DNA of 64,000 nt from Pseudanabaena mucicola str. Chao 1806 (GTDB lineage Bacteria; Cyanobacteriota; Cyanobacteriia; Pseudanabaenales; Pseudanabaenaceae), in the NCBI RefSeq assembly GCF_030323025.1, contig NZ_CP097329.1, positions 2,362,501-2,426,500 of the forward strand, written 5' to 3'. The notes beneath the pieces are model-generated. The model was not told the DNA's origin. It did no database searches and was given only the letters and a program-made list of their open reading frames with translations. Positions 3,481 through 9,746 of the stretch are shown one piece after another (within the stretch, counting starts at the first letter, position 1; every line of letters begins with the position of its first letter). The position numbers were made by a program, and so were the translations under genes.

Positions 3481-4407
3481 ATGACAAGCAAAATCTACTT
3501 AAAAGGCGTAAAAGCATACGGATACATAGGATATCTACCTGAAGAGAATGTATTAGGACAATGGTTTGAGGTTGATGCAACCCTATCGGTCGATTTTGCA
3601 AAAGCCAGCTATAGCGATGATATTGAAGATACGGTTAACTATATTTCTTGTATTCGGAAAATCGAGAATCTAATCCAGACTCGGAAATTTAAGTTGATTG
3701 AACGCTTAGCTGGGGAGATCGCTGACAGTCTCCTTGAAGATGAAAAAATTACTCAGGCTGAAGTAAAAATTATCAAGCATCCCCCAATTCCCAATTTCTT
3801 AGGTTCCGTTGCTGTCGAGATTGTGCGATCGCGAGTTCAAATCACCTCTACAAATACCGCAGCAACCAACCTAGAAGCAATCCCTGAAATGCAAGCAAAG
3901 CCTAGTCCTAAAGCCCCAAAAAACACCAGTGAGTCCCCATCACCCATCACCAATTCAGCCGAGTCCAAAATCATCAGCATCCATACTGACGGAGCCTGCT
4001 CTAAAAATCCAGGACCGGGAGGCTGGGGCGTAGTTGTTCACTTCTCTGATGGTAGTACTAAAGAGCTTGGCGGTGGTCTGCGCGAAACAACTAATAACCA
4101 AATGGAGTTACAGGGTGCGATCTCGGCTCTGGAATTTCTTGCCAGTCACAAACAATTAGCCTCTGTCGATCTCTATACCGATAGTAAATATGTACTTGAT
4201 GGCATTACCAAATGGATTAAGGGCTGGAAAAAGAACGGTTGGCAAACTAAAGACAATAAGCCCGTCAAAAATCAAGAATATTGGCAACAACTTGATCGCC
4301 TTAATTCTCCAAATATCCGATGGCACTGGGTCGAAGGTCATTCTGGTGATCCTGATAATGAGCGATGCGATGCGATCGCCCGCAGCTACACCGCTAAGTT
4401 TGCTTAA
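3481..4407 (+). CDS. Fusion: dihydroneopterin aldolase (FolB) + ribonuclease HI
   Basis: Residues 1-118 form a complete FolB-type dihydroneopterin aldolase: [19 protein letters not shown], then [20 protein letters not shown] and [10 protein letters not shown]. FolB converts 7,8-dihydroneopterin in folate synthesis. Residues about 120-162 are a Pro/Ser/Thr-rich linker. Residues 163-308 are a complete RNase [40 protein letters not shown] and [16 protein letters not shown]. The predicted catalytic residues are Asp170, Glu209, Asp234 and Asp297, with His287. RNase HI removes RNA from RNA:DNA hybrids. The frame is continuous with no internal stop, and each half is full length, so this is a true fusion rather than overlapping genes. 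A strong hairpin terminator follows at once. Confidence 0.9.
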
Positions 4408-4472: not shown

Positions 4473-4886
4473 ATGGCTAGAGATTTATTCCATGATGCAG
4501 TAAAAAATGCACTAATCAAAGATGGTTGGCGGATTACTGATGATCCATTTTCCTTAAAAGTAGGAGATTCTGAACTTTATATTGACCTTGGCGCAGAAAG
4601 GCTCATCGCCGCCGAGCGCGACAATGAAAAAATTGCCGTAGAAATTAAAAGCTTTATTGGTAACTCATCTCTCAGTGATTTTCATTTAGCAGTCGGACAA
4701 TTTATTAACTATAGAATCGGTCTAAAAGCCGCATATCCAGACCGTAAACTATTTTTAGCAATTCCTTATACTGCCTATGAAACCTTCTTCAAGAAGGAAT
4801 TCCCACGCATGGTGATCCAAGAATGTCAGCTTGATATCTTAGTTTATGATGTAAAGAATGAGGTAATTGTCCAATGGAAAATCTAG
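4473..4886 (+). CDS. xisH: XisH-family protein (PD-(D/E)XK nuclease-like)
   Basis: The protein is 137 residues, the normal XisH length, with a family-typical start (MARDLFHDAVKNALIKDGW). The nuclease-like core is YIDLGAERLIAAERDNEKI followed by AVEIKSF, giving the Asp38...Glu57-x-Lys59 pattern of PD-(D/E)XK folds. FSLKVGD, YRIGLKA and LFLAIP are also conserved. XisH was first named in Anabaena as a factor needed for excision of the fdxN element. Many cyanobacteria have several xisHI pairs with no such element, so the ancestral role is unclear. Its stop overlaps xisI by 13 nt. Its near neighbour is an Argonaute-like gene, which makes a defence role worth testing. Confidence 0.9.
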   Translation: MARDLFHDAVKNALIKDGWRITDDPFSLKVGDSELYIDLGAERLIAAERDNEKIAVEIKSFIGNSSLSDFHLAVGQFINYRIGLKAAYPDRKLFLAIPYTAYETFFKKEFPRMVIQECQLDILVYDVKNEVIVQWKI

Positions 4887-5218
4887 AAAAAAGCAACAGC
4901 TACCGCAACATTATTAAACAATTTCTTCGCCAATATGCATCTTATAAACCTTCACATGGCGAGATCGAAATGCAAACCCTATTTGATACTGAACAGGATC
5001 GCTATCAAGTACTAGCAATTGGTTGGGATCAAGAAAAACGTATCTATGGTTGCTCAATGCACCTCGATATTAAAGCAGGAAAAGTCTGGATTCAAGCTAA
5101 CAATACAGAAATAGATATTGCTGAGACTTTAGTTGCTCAAGGAGTACCCAAAGAAGATATCGTGATTGGCTTACAACCTGCTTATCTAAGGCAATACACG
5201 GGATATGCGATCGCCTAA
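4874..5218 (+). CDS. xisI: XisI-family protein
   Basis: This 114-residue protein has the classic XisI pattern. An N-terminal helix is followed by YQVLAIGWDQEKRIYGCSMH, then the DIKAGKVWIQANNTEIDIA strand, AETLVAQGVPKEDIVIG, and the C-terminal tail PAYLRQYTGYAIA. XisI always pairs with XisH, and here the two frames overlap by 13 nt, so they are translationally coupled. XisI is generally thought to be the small partner that controls or completes XisH; the biochemistry is not settled. The Argonaute-like frame begins 28 nt after its stop, close enough for one transcript. Confidence 0.9.
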   Translation: MENLEKSNSYRNIIKQFLRQYASYKPSHGEIEMQTLFDTEQDRYQVLAIGWDQEKRIYGCSMHLDIKAGKVWIQANNTEIDIAETLVAQGVPKEDIVIGLQPAYLRQYTGYAIA

Positions 5219-5246: not shown

Positions 5247-6473
5247 ATGTTTTATCTCAGTAGCTCAAAAGTATGTTTATATGTCCCCAATTGCCATTGG
5301 GAATTAAAAGATAGTTATGATTTAAAACTACAATTTATCAATACAAATAATCTTTGTATTGATGATTGTAAGTATCTAGTACAAGCAACTAGTGATACTG
5401 GTGGTAAAAAAACAAGGAAACTTTCTTTTTTTCTTGTACACGATATATATCAAGAAGAAAATTATCACAAATTATTTTTACAAAAATACTTAACTATTGA
5501 AGATACATCAAAAATTAAAATGTTTTTGATTGTTCATGATGTTCAGTCTACTAACAATACATCTCTTATAGATTTAACTCAAATATTGAAAATATATAAT
5601 AATTTTAAATTTGAGCCATTTTCAACTGTTATGCCTGTTGAATCAAATGGATTTAATCTTAAAATGGAAATAAAAAATCTGTTTAGTAATGTAGGATTTG
5701 AATTTAAAGATCATTATTCAGTTATATTTTCTTTCAAAGAACAAATTCACGATGATGATAGGCTCTTGGTGGTCAAAAAAGGAGTGCATTTTTCTCTTGA
5801 AAAATATGAAATTAATGACGTATGGCTTAATTTATCTGGTGTCAACTTTTCTAGAAGTGTCAAATCAATTAAAAGCCTGAAAATACCTGAGCCAATAGAT
5901 CATAGTAAACATAAGTTTGTAAATATCAAAACAGGTAGTAAGTTGCCGATAGATGTTAAAGAGATTAAACAAGTGCGTCATGCAGAAAATTTCTATGAGA
6001 CATTTAGTAGTGACAAAGCTATTGACAAGTCATTTGGCAACCTCAGATTTTCTCAAGGTAAATATTACTTTGAACAGACAAATTTAGAATCTTTGGTTAA
6101 AATGATAGATGACTTACATAAAAGAAGTCAAAATAAATCTAAATTTATTAACTTTGATAGTCTAGGTAATGTTGGTCTAAAGCCAAAAATTATACATACA
6201 ATAAAAAAGTTTGTGTTTGCTAATCGAGAGCTTTATTATACTCCTGCGAAAGGTCTGCATCATTGCGGAGTGTTGGTTGTTCCATCTGGTTTAAAATTAA
6301 AATTACTCATATCTAAAAATGCGATCAATGAAGCTTTTGATGTCATAAAAAATATCAATGAAAGAATTAAATTCTTATATAAAAACTCTGTCGGAGCTAT
6401 ATCTCAAGAAGATATTATTGTTTTTGACTATGAAAACTTTACAGAACAAGATTCTTTGTCTAGTATTTATTAA
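5247..6473 (+). CDS. Prokaryotic Argonaute, N-terminal part (frame-broken)
   Basis: The 408-residue frame has no single diagnostic motif until its C-terminal part. There, YYTPAKGLHHCGVLVVPSG followed by LKLKLLISKN, and later SQEDIIVFDYE, resemble the L2/early-MID section of long prokaryotic Argonautes ('...G-L-x-x-x-G-x...'). The next frame supplies an intact MID/PIWI region with no missing segment. The stop at 6471-6473 is reached because the frame changes by one base within about 6425-6455. Joined at that point the product would be about 690 residues, the size of a long Argonaute (TtAgo is 685). The sequence is much more AT-rich than its neighbours, suggesting transfer. It may be a decayed gene, a programmed frameshift, a split gene, or a base error. 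Confidence 0.7.
   Translation: MFYLSSSKVCLYVPNCHWELKDSYDLKLQFINTNNLCIDDCKYLVQATSDTGGKKTRKLSFFLVHDIYQEENYHKLFLQKYLTIEDTSKIKMFLIVHDVQSTNNTSLIDLTQILKIYNNFKFEPFSTVMPVESNGFNLKMEIKNLFSNVGFEFKDHYSVIFSFKEQIHDDDRLLVVKKGVHFSLEKYEINDVWLNLSGVNFSRSVKSIKSLKIPEPIDHSKHKFVNIKTGSKLPIDVKEIKQVRHAENFYETFSSDKAIDKSFGNLRFSQGKYYFEQTNLESLVKMIDDLHKRSQNKSKFINFDSLGNVGLKPKIIHTIKKFVFANRELYYTPAKGLHHCGVLVVPSGLKLKLLISKNAINEAFDVIKNINERIKFLYKNSVGAISQEDIIVFDYENFTEQDSLSSIY
6425..6458 (+). other. Frameshift site inside the Argonaute gene
   Basis: Upstream frame residues (...EDIIVFDYENFTEQ) and downstream frame residues (KILCLVFIND...) are both Argonaute-like, and the switch falls within this ~30-bp window. One surplus base relative to an intact gene explains it. 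The only short homopolymer is an A4 run near 6433. A stop follows in the first frame 15-40 bases later. No obvious CUU-UGA-type or A6-type slippery site is present, which slightly favours mutation or base error over programmed shifting. Confidence 0.6.
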
Positions 6474-7320
6474 TGATAAATATAGCTGTCTAGTGCATTT
6501 AAACATTATTAAAGAAGATTTTACTGACATTAACAGTTCTATTATTAAATTCTTAAAAAGAAATAATTTGAATTTCACACTAATCAATCAGTTGGAAAAA
6601 TATACAATTGCAAATGCCTTACTTAAGTTGGGACTGAAGAAAGGTGCTATTCCTTGGAAGATAAATTTCATAGATCATGAAGACTTTAATCACATTTTTA
6701 TTGGAGTTGATTTAGGTCATGATCATTCTCATAGATCAAGTAATTTAACAATTATTGCAATTAACAACCAAGGCTTATTGCTCAGCAAATACCAAAAACT
6801 CAATTTACCTATTAGTGAGAATATTCCTTTGATAGAACTAAGACAGGCATTGAAGAAAATATTTAACCAAATACCAGAGCGTTTAAAACAGAACTTAAAA
6901 ATGACAATTCATAGAGATGGAAATTTTCATGAATTATCTTCTTTTCAAGAAGTCATGCTTGAATTGGGAATCAAAGAATATAATCTAGTTGAAGTTATAA
7001 AATCTGATGTCCCTATAATTGGATTTCGCGAACAAAATCATTCAAATTATATTGATGGCTTCACTGGATATTATCTATACAAAGATTTTTTAGCTTATTT
7101 AGTGACAAATGACCAATCTTTAAAACAAGGGACTTCGCCATCACCTCTGAAAATAAAGAAAATCATTGGATACAAATCAATTCATCAAATAGTAGAAGAA
7201 ATATTTTGGCTAACTAAAGCTTATTCAATTAACATTTTTGAATCTACTAAATTGCCAATTACTACCTTACTAGCCAATAACTTCGCATACACCAGATCTC
7301 TAATTCATTTTACGAACTAA
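6430..7320 (+). CDS. Prokaryotic Argonaute, MID-PIWI part (frame-broken)
   Basis: This frame is +1 relative to the upstream one; its first usable ATG is at 6430, although similarity begins at KILCLVFINDKYSCLV. MID-like sequence ends in LKLGLKKGAIPW, the conserved 'K-L-G-x-x-P-W' joint. PIWI follows: FIGVDLG (first Asp, codon at 6709), IHRDGNF (second catalytic Asp, codon at 6916), VEVIKSDVP, QGTSPSPLKI and LPITTLLANNFAYTRS. In Argonautes the final tetrad residue lies in the 'L-A-(D/H)' segment. Here it is Asn, giving a DEDN-type site if one of the Glu residues near 6820-6840 is the glutamate finger. Such guide-directed nucleases defend against plasmids and phages. Confidence 0.78.
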   Translation: MKTLQNKILCLVFINDKYSCLVHLNIIKEDFTDINSSIIKFLKRNNLNFTLINQLEKYTIANALLKLGLKKGAIPWKINFIDHEDFNHIFIGVDLGHDHSHRSSNLTIIAINNQGLLLSKYQKLNLPISENIPLIELRQALKKIFNQIPERLKQNLKMTIHRDGNFHELSSFQEVMLELGIKEYNLVEVIKSDVPIIGFREQNHSNYIDGFTGYYLYKDFLAYLVTNDQSLKQGTSPSPLKIKKIIGYKSIHQIVEEIFWLTKAYSINIFESTKLPITTLLANNFAYTRSLIHFTN

Positions 7321-7327
7321 GTCTTAC

Positions 7328-8527
7328 CTAAATTTTTAACTCTGGTTCGGTAAAATCAAAAGGTAATTCGTTGTTAATCGCTTGAATTTGCTTTGCTTCG
7401 TAAGCATTGACCTCATTGATATAGGGAACCAGAATTTGCTTGAGGCGATCGCGATAAAAGCGATGCAAACTGTAATTTGGAGTTGCAGGAAACCCACGCC
7501 GCTTTTTGTGTTGACCACCTGCACCCGGGTCAAAGCGCTTAATCCCTTGAGAAATTGCCCACTCAATCGGCGTGTAATAGCAAGCATTAAAATGCAAACA
7601 ATCAATTTCTTGCACACAGCCCCAATAGCGCCCAAATAATTGATCCCCCTTACGAATACAGAATGACATGCCTACAGGTTGCGGATAATCCTCAATCTCT
7701 CCAGCCACAAACACAAGCTGATCGCGGAAACTATGGGCTAAATGTTCAAAAAACTTGCGATTTAAATATTTACTTCCACCCCAGAATTTATTGCAATGAT
7801 CGTTATATAGCTCATACATATAGCTATAGAAATAATGGGGAATCTCTTCACCTGTGTATACCCGCATCTTGATCCCCGTACTTTCCACTGACTTGCGTTC
7901 CCGTTTGATATTACGGCGTTGATTCGCATTGAAATTTTTGAGGTAATCATCAAAATCTTTAAACTCTTGATTTTCCCAAACATAACTATGGTGCATCCAA
8001 GTCGTAAACCCTCGCGACTCCAACTCATGCTTCCAACTAGGATCAACATAGAGAAAGTTACAGCCAGACATTTGGTAGCGATCGCAAAGTTTATCGATCT
8101 CTAACAACATCAAGTCATAGATTTTGGATACTTCGTCAGGGCGATCGCTCAGATCAGGATGCACCAAAAAGCGATAGCCCACCGCAGGCGTAAAGGGAGC
8201 CATCCCCAACAACTTTGGATAATACTCAATACCTAGCCGATAGGACAAATCCGCCCATTGATGGTCAAACACAAACTCCCCTTGGCTATGCCCCTTCATA
8301 TACAAAGGTGCAGCCGCCACCAATACATCCCTTTGCCACACCAATAAATGACTAGGTAGCCATCCTTGCTGAGCGATCGCACAGCCCGAAGCTTCTAAAT
8401 TCGAGAGCCATTCCCATTCAAAGAAAGGAGTTACCAAAGGTTTTGCAAGAATATTCCATACTTCAGCCTTGACCTTGTTAACTGTATCTACCCAAGTCGT
8501 CGTATAACGGGAAGCCTGTTGCAGCAT
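7328..8527 (-). CDS. GNAT-fold N-acyltransferase, PF04339 (FemAB-like)
   Basis: The 399-residue protein is a member of the 'peptidogalycan biosynthesis/recognition' family (DUF482, PF04339). Recognisable blocks are TPFFEWEWLSNLEASGC near the start, YFYSYMYELYNDHCNKFWGG, GRYWGC, and FDPGAGGQHKKRRGF near the end. The family has a double GNAT fold like FemAB aminoacyltransferases; its substrate is not known. Length is typical. It is read toward the Argonaute fragment, with only 7 nt between stop codons, so the two genes converge. No signal peptide is visible, so it should be cytoplasmic. Confidence 0.85.
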   Translation of the reverse strand: MLQQASRYTTTWVDTVNKVKAEVWNILAKPLVTPFFEWEWLSNLEASGCAIAQQGWLPSHLLVWQRDVLVAAAPLYMKGHSQGEFVFDHQWADLSYRLGIEYYPKLLGMAPFTPAVGYRFLVHPDLSDRPDEVSKIYDLMLLEIDKLCDRYQMSGCNFLYVDPSWKHELESRGFTTWMHHSYVWENQEFKDFDDYLKNFNANQRRNIKRERKSVESTGIKMRVYTGEEIPHYFYSYMYELYNDHCNKFWGGSKYLNRKFFEHLAHSFRDQLVFVAGEIEDYPQPVGMSFCIRKGDQLFGRYWGCVQEIDCLHFNACYYTPIEWAISQGIKRFDPGAGGQHKKRRGFPATPNYSLHRFYRDRLKQILVPYINEVNAYEAKQIQAINNELPFDFTEPELKI

Positions 8528-8657: not shown

Positions 8658-9138
8658 TATGAATTTATGTAAACAAAATGTGTCTTACAATACCATCTGA
8701 GTTAATGTATATACATAGCACAAGAGATAAAGCAACTCAATCCAAACGCAATTCCATCTCACATATTGAAGTTAAGCTTTCAATAGGAGGAGGAAGCAAA
8801 AAGAAAGAGTTAGAAGTCAAGTCGGATTGACGCTTTGTTGCTCCCCACGATTCTTCGATCTTTACGGGGCAGTGCTTATTCCTAAAGATCGGTGTAGTTT
8901 TGATAGCTTCACTAGCCTACATTGTAATTAAGGTCTCTTAAATTTTTCTAGTACATTAGTCGGTTTTTAAACTAGTACTACGAGTAAATGAGACAAACTT
9001 ATGTAGTTAAAAAGATAAGGGCTACAGTACAAAGTTAATCAATACCTAACACGCATTAGCAAACCCCTAGTACGACAACTAATTGAATTATATTAAAACA
9101 TGAGTCTAGCAGCCTTCTGCTAGACTCATTGAGTTTTT
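8658..9138 (+). ncRNA. Candidate structured RNA, copy 1 of a tandem duplicated cassette
   Basis: This ~480-bp unit is repeated at 9266-9746. The two share three strongly similar blocks (about 8658-8755, 8816-8940 and 9017-9138) separated by diverged linkers. Shared elements are the palindrome ATGTATATACAT; a long-range stem GATCTTTA...TAAAGATC enclosing CGGGGCAGTGCTTAT; GGATTGACGCTTTGTTGCTC; TTAATCAATACCTAACACG; and a terminal hairpin AGTCTAGCAG/CTGCTAGACT followed by T5. Conserved stems, variable linkers and a shared terminator suggest a transcribed, folded RNA. The small frame starting MCLTIPSELMYIH differs between the copies by mainly amino-acid-changing substitutions, so coding is unlikely. 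It matches no RNA class known to me. Strand is inferred from the terminator. Confidence 0.45.
9100..9138 (+). terminator. Terminator of cassette copy 1
   Basis: The stem ATGAGTCTAGCAG pairs with CTGCTAGACTCAT across a CTT-type loop and is followed by TGAGTTTTT. The same hairpin closes copy 2. Confidence 0.8.
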
Positions 9139-9265: not shown

Positions 9266-9746
9266 TATGAATTTATGTAAACAAAATGTGTCTTACAATA
9301 CCACCTGAGTTAATGTATATACATGGCACAAGAGACAGAGCAACTCAATCCAAACGCAAACCCAGCTTGAGTTCCGAAAGCAACCTTTTCATTAAAAAGG
9401 AGGAGAAGCAAATAGAAAGAGTTAAAAGTCAAAGACGGATTGACGCTTTGTTGCTCCCTGCGATTCCTCGATCTTTACGGGGCAGTGCTTATCCTAAAGA
9501 TCGGTGTAGTTTTGATAACTTCGATAGCCTGTATCATTATTGAGGTCTCTTAATTTTTGTCTTTTGTATTTTTAGGTTTTGACCTAGCATTATGACAATT
9601 GAGGCAAACTGATTTAGCTTAAACGTAAAGGCTACAGCGCATAGTTAATCAATACCTAACACGTCCAGTTAAACCTCTAGTAGATAACTAATTGAATTAT
9701 TTTAGACATGAGTCTAGCAGCCTTCTGCTAGACTCATTGAGTTTTT
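9266..9746 (+). ncRNA. Candidate structured RNA, copy 2
   Basis: This is the second copy of the 8658-9138 cassette, lying 128 bp further on. The first ~95 bases and the ~125-base central block match copy 1 closely, while the segments near 9360-9425 and 9551-9610 do not. The hairpins ATGTATATACAT, GATCTTTA/TAAAGATC and the terminal stem are preserved. A frame of 85 codons (9286-9543) exists only in this copy; copy 1 is interrupted after about 50 codons, so I do not call it a gene. The unit ends about 120 bp before tpiA and carries its own terminator, so it is not a tpiA leader. Confidence 0.45.
9708..9746 (+). terminator. Terminator of cassette copy 2
   Basis: The stem and loop are identical to those at 9100-9138: ATGAGTCTAGCAG paired with CTGCTAGACTCAT, then TGAGTTTTT. 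Confidence 0.8.

Follow-up and report, generated by a model that had tools for sequence, protein, structure and literature searches.

Does an Argonaute gene that lies in two reading frames still encode a working protein, or has it been broken? The question is raised by a locus of Pseudanabaena mucicola str. Chao 1806, in a stretch of 64,000 nucleotides (hereafter the window) of a genome that forms a single contig of 4.53 Mb. The original prediction described the locus as a long prokaryotic Argonaute (pAgo) split by a single frame change and left four explanations unranked, namely a recent pseudogene, a programmed frameshift, a deliberate split and a base error. Here, we rank them. The gene is probably a transferred Argonaute, of a rare lineage related to that of Marinitoga piezophila (MpAgo), which a frameshift has recently turned into a pseudogene. 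A base error and a functional split are possible alternatives, and a programmed shift is unlikely.

Reading frames and Argonaute identity

The features of the gene are listed below. The list refers to MpAgo and to two close relatives of the window gene, with 52-54% identity, from Trichocoleus sp. FACHB-40 (L079) and Calothrix elsteri CCALA 953 (L078).

5247-6473, plus strand: ORF1, N-terminal half of the Argonaute, 408 aa; N, L1, PAZ and L2 assigned by position only
6358-7320, plus strand: ORF2, MID and PIWI; 320 aa if started at the first ATG (6358) and 296 aa if started at 6430
6455-6473, plus strand: probable frame-change zone, from the codon model and the alignment with Trichocoleus and Calothrix; about 4-10 residues ahead of SCLVHL (6484), which we take to be the first strand of MID
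6703-6723, plus strand: PIWI motif GVDLGHD with the first catalytic D, by alignment with MpAgo
6814-6831, plus strand: SENIPL with the catalytic E, aligned with LNEKMNL of MpAgo
6910-6921, plus strand: HRDG with the second catalytic D, by alignment with MpAgo
7267-7281, plus strand: LLANN, whose N is at the fourth catalytic position, the residue found there in MpAgo, by alignment with MpAgo

The frames of ORF1 and ORF2 differ by one base and overlap by 116 bases, and ORF1 is terminated by three tandem in-frame stops. A long pAgo is defined by one uninterrupted reading frame, which the window gene does not have. When the two frames are joined, a stop-free read of 690 residues is obtained. The search of this joined protein with Argonaute profiles, which had been proposed as a check, gave alignments that are colinear across the joint, of residues 282-680 to positions 302-696 of PDLC02388 and of residues 224-590 to positions 175-540 of PDLC01134. 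The layout of the ORFs, the stop-free read and these alignments bear out the prediction that both frames make up one protein of about 690 residues with a single frame change. The profiles align through the joint and the catalytic tetrad is intact; as was also predicted, no conserved part is evidently lacking. The region is as AT-rich as claimed, with a GC content of 27.8% for 5247-7320 compared with 41.3% for the window.

ORF2 contains the MID and PIWI domains of the Argonaute fold. It matches Pfam Piwi (E 4.3e-8) and two PADLOC pAgo/PIWI profiles (E 2.5e-28 and 6e-28), and its sequence matches in the PDB are KmAgo, AaAgo and MpAgo. The best of these is KmAgo (PDB 8xhs), with an E-value of 4.4e-12 for ORF2 alone and of 3.6e-16 with a three-row profile. 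A three-row fold model of ORF2 has a mean pLDDT of 56.9; because this model is weak, the fold search made with it, in which MpAgo (5i4a) is the top PDB match (E 3.9e-10), supports the case and does not carry it. Alignment with MpAgo shows an intact DEDN tetrad, formed by the D of GVDLG, the E of SENIPL, the D of HRDG and the N of LLANN, and it confirms the motifs GVDLG, HRDG and LPITTLLANN of the original prediction by placing the catalytic D, D and N in them. A part of PMC5435312 permits Asn at position X of the DEDX tetrad of pAgos, and by alignment the window gene has the DEDX tetrad expected of an active long-A protein. The quoted segment LKLGLKKGAIPW, which had been described as the MID joint, sits inside the MID domain instead. 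No second Piwi match was found in the genome at E 0.001.

ORF1 is tied to the Argonaute by its position and by its relatives. Alone, it has no Pfam match, it matches one PADLOC pAgo profile weakly (E 0.0054), and against the PDB it yields no Argonaute, with two fibre proteins at E 0.12-0.13. A profile made of ORF1 and its relatives has no PDB match up to E 1, and its hhalign comparison with canonical N-PAZ sequences gives a probability of 0.3%. The model of the whole protein, including the N-terminal part, is unusable (mean pLDDT 39.1). Homologues of ORF1 are found upstream of the same MID-PIWI in Trichocoleus, where the N half matches a PADLOC pAgo profile (E 3.2e-4), and in part at a contig end of the same Calothrix genome. 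The PADLOC matches, the PDB alignments and the joined read together support the identification as an Argonaute.

Position of the frame change

A codon model that was trained on the rest of the gene gives the best switch at 6455-6470, with scores of 18.7 to 20.0, against 14.1 to 15.2 for a switch at 6425-6431. The single frame change that was predicted is upheld, but its placement at 6425-6455 is shifted slightly later, near the stop of ORF1. With a switch at 6455-6470, DYE and VHL are 25 residues apart in both the window and Trichocoleus, therefore nothing seems to be missing; they are 27 residues apart in Calothrix. Strand SCLVHL aligned with the first MID strand of MpAgo. From these alignments, the frame change appears to lie at the L2/MID joint. 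This placement is uncertain by some ten codons, since another, looser alignment, made with canonical copies, matches that strand to residues starting at about 6454.

No run in the switch zone exceeds 3, and the frame is kept through the seven runs of 6-7 A or T that occur in other parts of the gene. Local RNA folds around the zone are no better than those of shuffled sequences (z 0.09 to 0.62). No Shine-Dalgarno-like site was recognised by eye before the ATGs at 6358 and 6430, and promoter-like sites are no commoner than in shuffles (12 vs 15.2).

Close relatives and their breaks

The Calothrix and Trichocoleus copies run in a single frame straight through the switch zone of the window, so the one-chain state looks ancestral and the change in the window derived. 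The same frame change, which the original prediction suggested might be found in related strains, is not shared. The Trichocoleus copy is broken twice, by an in-frame TGA (4163-4165) and by a change of frame where eight T follow one another (4821-4828), which is some 27-32 codons ahead of the zone of the window. The Calothrix gene spans an assembly gap: it starts close to the end of one contig, with 171 codons open to the edge, and resumes at the edge of another. One further member was found among 217 genomes of the Calothrix family, a remnant (G805) in which only about 100 residues of the C-terminal part are left, with a frame change and a deletion of 13 residues. All three members that can be read at their full extent (window, Trichocoleus and the G805 remnant) are disrupted, each differently. 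Among the four members no intact copy was seen, the fourth being the Calothrix gene that crosses the assembly gap.

The lineage is sparsely represented in the collections that were searched. A first scan of genome contigs with the window protein alone found no relative. The Trichocoleus and Calothrix copies came from a scan of the species-genome collection with the alignment of the window with MpAgo, a method that relies on short peptide patterns and may therefore overlook relatives. After these two, the best match in the 388-genome order sample is of the canonical kind (L085), and in the 6-genome Trichocoleus family only Trichocoleus itself was found. At E 0.001, and counting itself, ORF2 has matches in 13 genomes among 97 relatives and in 21 of the 388-genome class sample; none of the other matched genomes in those two samples exceeds 28% identity.

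The evidence from relative rates for decay of the window copy is equivocal. Counted without an outgroup, unique changes number 42 in the window against 33 in Trichocoleus (p 0.36) and against 21 in Calothrix (p 0.011), and on the tree the end branch of the window is 0.57, compared with 0.3 and 0.3.

Breaks among other cyanobacterial Argonautes

With a canonical Argonaute (L089) as the query, 74 genes were matched in 70 genomes of the 388-genome class sample. Open frames of 690 aa or more hold 67 of these genes, including one with an internal TGA (G299) and one of 1146 aa that may not be a pAgo (G080). The frame of the window, at 323, is the shortest, and some of the seven short matches may be cuts at contig ends or shorter types. 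The TGA of G299 (L127) lies within an otherwise full-length Argonaute frame of 759 aa. The matched Argonautes are mostly in full-length frames, and the lineage of the window looks worse off, on counts too small and too selected to support a statistical test. A Fisher test of 3/3 against 7/74 gives p 0.0016 with the window in both rows, and it is not relied on.

At least four broken copies (L085, L086, L087 and L099) are present in the order sample. The frame change of L085 precedes the first MID strand by about 20 residues, and its second half has a first listed start (1588) that is inside MID. L086 combines a stop with a frame change that precedes this strand by about 70 residues, L087 has one stop and L099 has two frame changes. 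Together with the window (one break) and Trichocoleus (two), nine breaks were mapped in six copies, L008, L092 and G805 being left out for their large losses. L086 may hold more than the two lesions counted, and a short second-frame match at the extreme N-terminus of L087 was not counted. Of the nine breaks, four fall in the stretch of about 70 residues that leads up to the first MID strand, and MID-PIWI has none. No probability is given to this clustering, because most of the copies were found through MID-PIWI similarity and the zone was chosen afterwards.

Genomic slot

The gene is flanked by the following features.

4473-4886, plus strand: XisH, upstream neighbour (Pfam XisH, E 8.1e-56)
4874-5218, plus strand: XisI, upstream neighbour and left edge of the Argonaute cargo (Pfam XisI, E 5e-44; edges by genome comparison)
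7328-8527, minus strand: convergent FemAB-like gene that bounds the variable slot on the right, present in 26 of 26 genomes of the genus

No DNA match to the Argonaute was found in the other 25 genomes of the genus, the same-species genome G097 included. The slot was compared by region in 13 genomes, two of which (L075 and L076) end before FemAB. The cargo between the gene at 3481-4407 and FemAB varies among genomes. The slot of G097 has a NYN-LOTUS gene (L064:1792-2667) and neither XisHI nor the Argonaute, that of G002 has XisHI followed by other genes, one of them with a WYL domain, that of G021 has only XisI with FemAB directly after it, and that of G018 has an acyltransferase gene. No XisHI was seen by eye in the ORF lists beside the Trichocoleus and Calothrix copies. 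On these comparisons, the Argonaute behaves as a solitary mobile cargo in a variable slot. The low GC content, the lack of a DNA match elsewhere in the genus and the variable slot support the claim of transfer made in the original prediction, and the gene appears to have been acquired horizontally. No terminal repeats or target-site duplications were recognised around it.

A known plasmid or phage carrier was also considered and rejected. In tblastn searches of plasmids, the matches are haloarchaeal Piwi proteins alone, four and three of them, at 24-27% identity, and no match was found in phages or in the scanned viral contigs.

Other features of the neighbourhood can be described. The XisH/XisI pair (4473-5218) is whole, partial or absent across the genus, and similar stretches occur elsewhere in many genomes. 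After FemAB there are two tandem copies of a repeat of roughly 480 bases, about 83% alike (8658-9138 and 9266-9746), each of which ends in the same terminator-like hairpin; there is no Rfam match in the window. Segment 197-769 is a C-terminal fragment (190 aa) of a Mutator-family transposase, and it is adjoined by genes for a BrnT toxin and a CopG-type antitoxin (820-1306), the antitoxin being just under the Pfam cut-off.

Explanations of the frame change

We propose that a solitary long Argonaute, a relative of MpAgo, was acquired horizontally into the slot between XisHI and FemAB. Judging from its family, the intact protein would have held a small guide in its MID domain and cut matching foreign nucleic acid with the DEDN site of PIWI. 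A single frame change near the L2/MID joint would then make translation stop after the N-terminal half. As the MID-PIWI half would be out of register and no longer translated, the gene has most likely turned into a pseudogene recently. This reading is favoured because one chain looks ancestral, the other members of the lineage differ in their lesions, and there is neither a site resembling a ribosome-binding site nor a sign of recoding. The event may be recent, since no second lesion is present, the tetrad is intact and the codon pattern is kept. We infer the loss of function, its recency and the former role of the protein. Two points can be raised against a pseudogene. Both halves are fully open and the break is where natural split Argonautes divide, which would also fit a two-chain protein; and the excess of unique changes in the window, being significant only against Calothrix, is equivocal.

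Some observations would fit a living gene in one intact frame, misread through a base or assembly error: the gene is AT-rich and is present in only one assembly, and the comparison with the same-species genome would, at its 95% upper bound, still permit 0.24 coding indels in the 2,074 bases of a gene of this length. That comparison, of G097 with the window over 34,610 colinear bases on both sides (26,170 of them in ORFs of at least 120 aa), found 111 mismatches and 6 indel sites, with none of the indels in such ORFs; it left out two matches between local repeat copies (8658 and 9266), and the Argonaute lies outside the compared stretch. With coding indels absent from G097 and no long run in the switch zone, while the runs of A or T elsewhere in the gene have not broken the frame, an error is unlikely and is not the leading explanation. 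The run of eight T at which Trichocoleus changes frame, in the same register as the window, is the kind of sequence that can slip, and together with the overlap of the frames and the tandem stops that end ORF1 it could suggest programmed frameshifting or transcriptional slippage joining both frames. The positions in the two genes are, however, 27-32 codons apart, Trichocoleus also has its in-frame TGA, both relatives are continuous at the position of the window, and the zone has neither a slip-prone run nor RNA structure above that of shuffles. We reject programmed frameshifting on these differing positions and on the lack of a run and of a structure, and consider it highly improbable.

A functional split would have ORF1 as an N-PAZ-L2 chain and ORF2 as a MID-PIWI chain that assemble like the AfAgo-N/AfAgo heterodimer. 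The break is at the L2/MID boundary, at which a part of PMC10954474 places the division of split long-B Argonautes; in ORF2 there are in-frame ATGs at 6358 and 6430; both frames are intact, as is the tetrad; and four of the nine mapped breaks precede MID closely, with none in MID-PIWI. The split is, however, not kept in Calothrix and Trichocoleus, which are single-chain across the break of the window, and neither ATG is preceded by a recognisable Shine-Dalgarno-like site. The closest parallel, L085, has the first listed start of its other half within MID, the downstream gene is the convergent FemAB and not an effector of the AfAgo type, and the count of breaks is biased towards copies found by MID-PIWI similarity. 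An assembly of two chains in the manner of AfAgo is distinctly unlikely here.

It is worth stating what such an assembly would mean. That separate N-terminal and MID-PIWI lobes might reassemble as a catalytically active (DEDN) two-chain Argonaute is a long shot. If it were true, the repeated breaks before MID (window, Trichocoleus, L085 and, farther upstream, L086) would mark a hinge split that active long-A Argonautes tolerate or that is selected in them; inactive long-B or short Argonautes are the split forms that a part of PMC10954474 describes. The locus would allow a direct test of whether an active Argonaute can be split at the hinge. If it is just a dead gene, it has met the ordinary fate of transferred defence genes. 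A small lineage is added beside MpAgo, in named cyanobacteria, with copies that are not beside recognised CRISPR genes and with no intact copy seen, and it gives concrete form to the question of why Argonautes are so easily gained and lost.

Comparison with known Argonautes

In the literature that we consulted on pAgos with a frameshift or split and on XisH/XisI, no account of this lineage was recognised, although one may exist in print. In a PIWI tree of 22 rows, the window, Trichocoleus and Calothrix group with MpAgo with support of 99/98, the tool warning of long branches and unusual composition, and the lineage is apart from the other cyanobacterial Argonautes compared.

MpAgo (PDB 5i4a and 5ux0), of the MID-OH group, shares with the window gene the DEDN pattern and the clade, and it is the top fold match. 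It differs in that identity is about 30%, the frame of the window gene is broken and this gene is not beside CRISPR genes. A part of PMC6299218 places the Argonaute within CRISPR loci in all nine MID-OH strains. The immediate neighbours of the window gene are XisI and FemAB, and not a CRISPR locus with Cas1/Cas2; because they are not cas genes, the window Argonaute is regarded as a relative of the MID-OH group and is not filed as a member. No cas gene was recognised by eye in the ORF lists beside the Trichocoleus and Calothrix copies. In the pocket for a 5'-OH guide, the canonical first Tyr is not seen, and in a loose alignment the Lys of KLG is aligned with KMG of MpAgo in all three copies; in the same alignment, the aromatic residue before this Lys is absent in Calothrix.

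KmAgo from Kurthia massiliensis (8xhs) is the best PDB sequence match, yet its identity is 26% and, by alignment, the fourth position of its tetrad is D while that of the window gene is N. The canonical long Argonautes of cyanobacteria (L002, L055, L089 and others) have a MID-PIWI identity of 20-25% over 16 rows and form a different clade. With the split long-B pair AfAgo/AfAgo-N, the window gene shares the layout only, two frames divided at the L2/MID boundary, a division that according to a part of PMC10954474 arose several times independently. In the same partial account, AfAgo has a PIWI domain without catalytic activity and an effector gene commonly follows downstream, whereas the window gene has an intact tetrad, no effector downstream and relatives that are single-chain at the split point.
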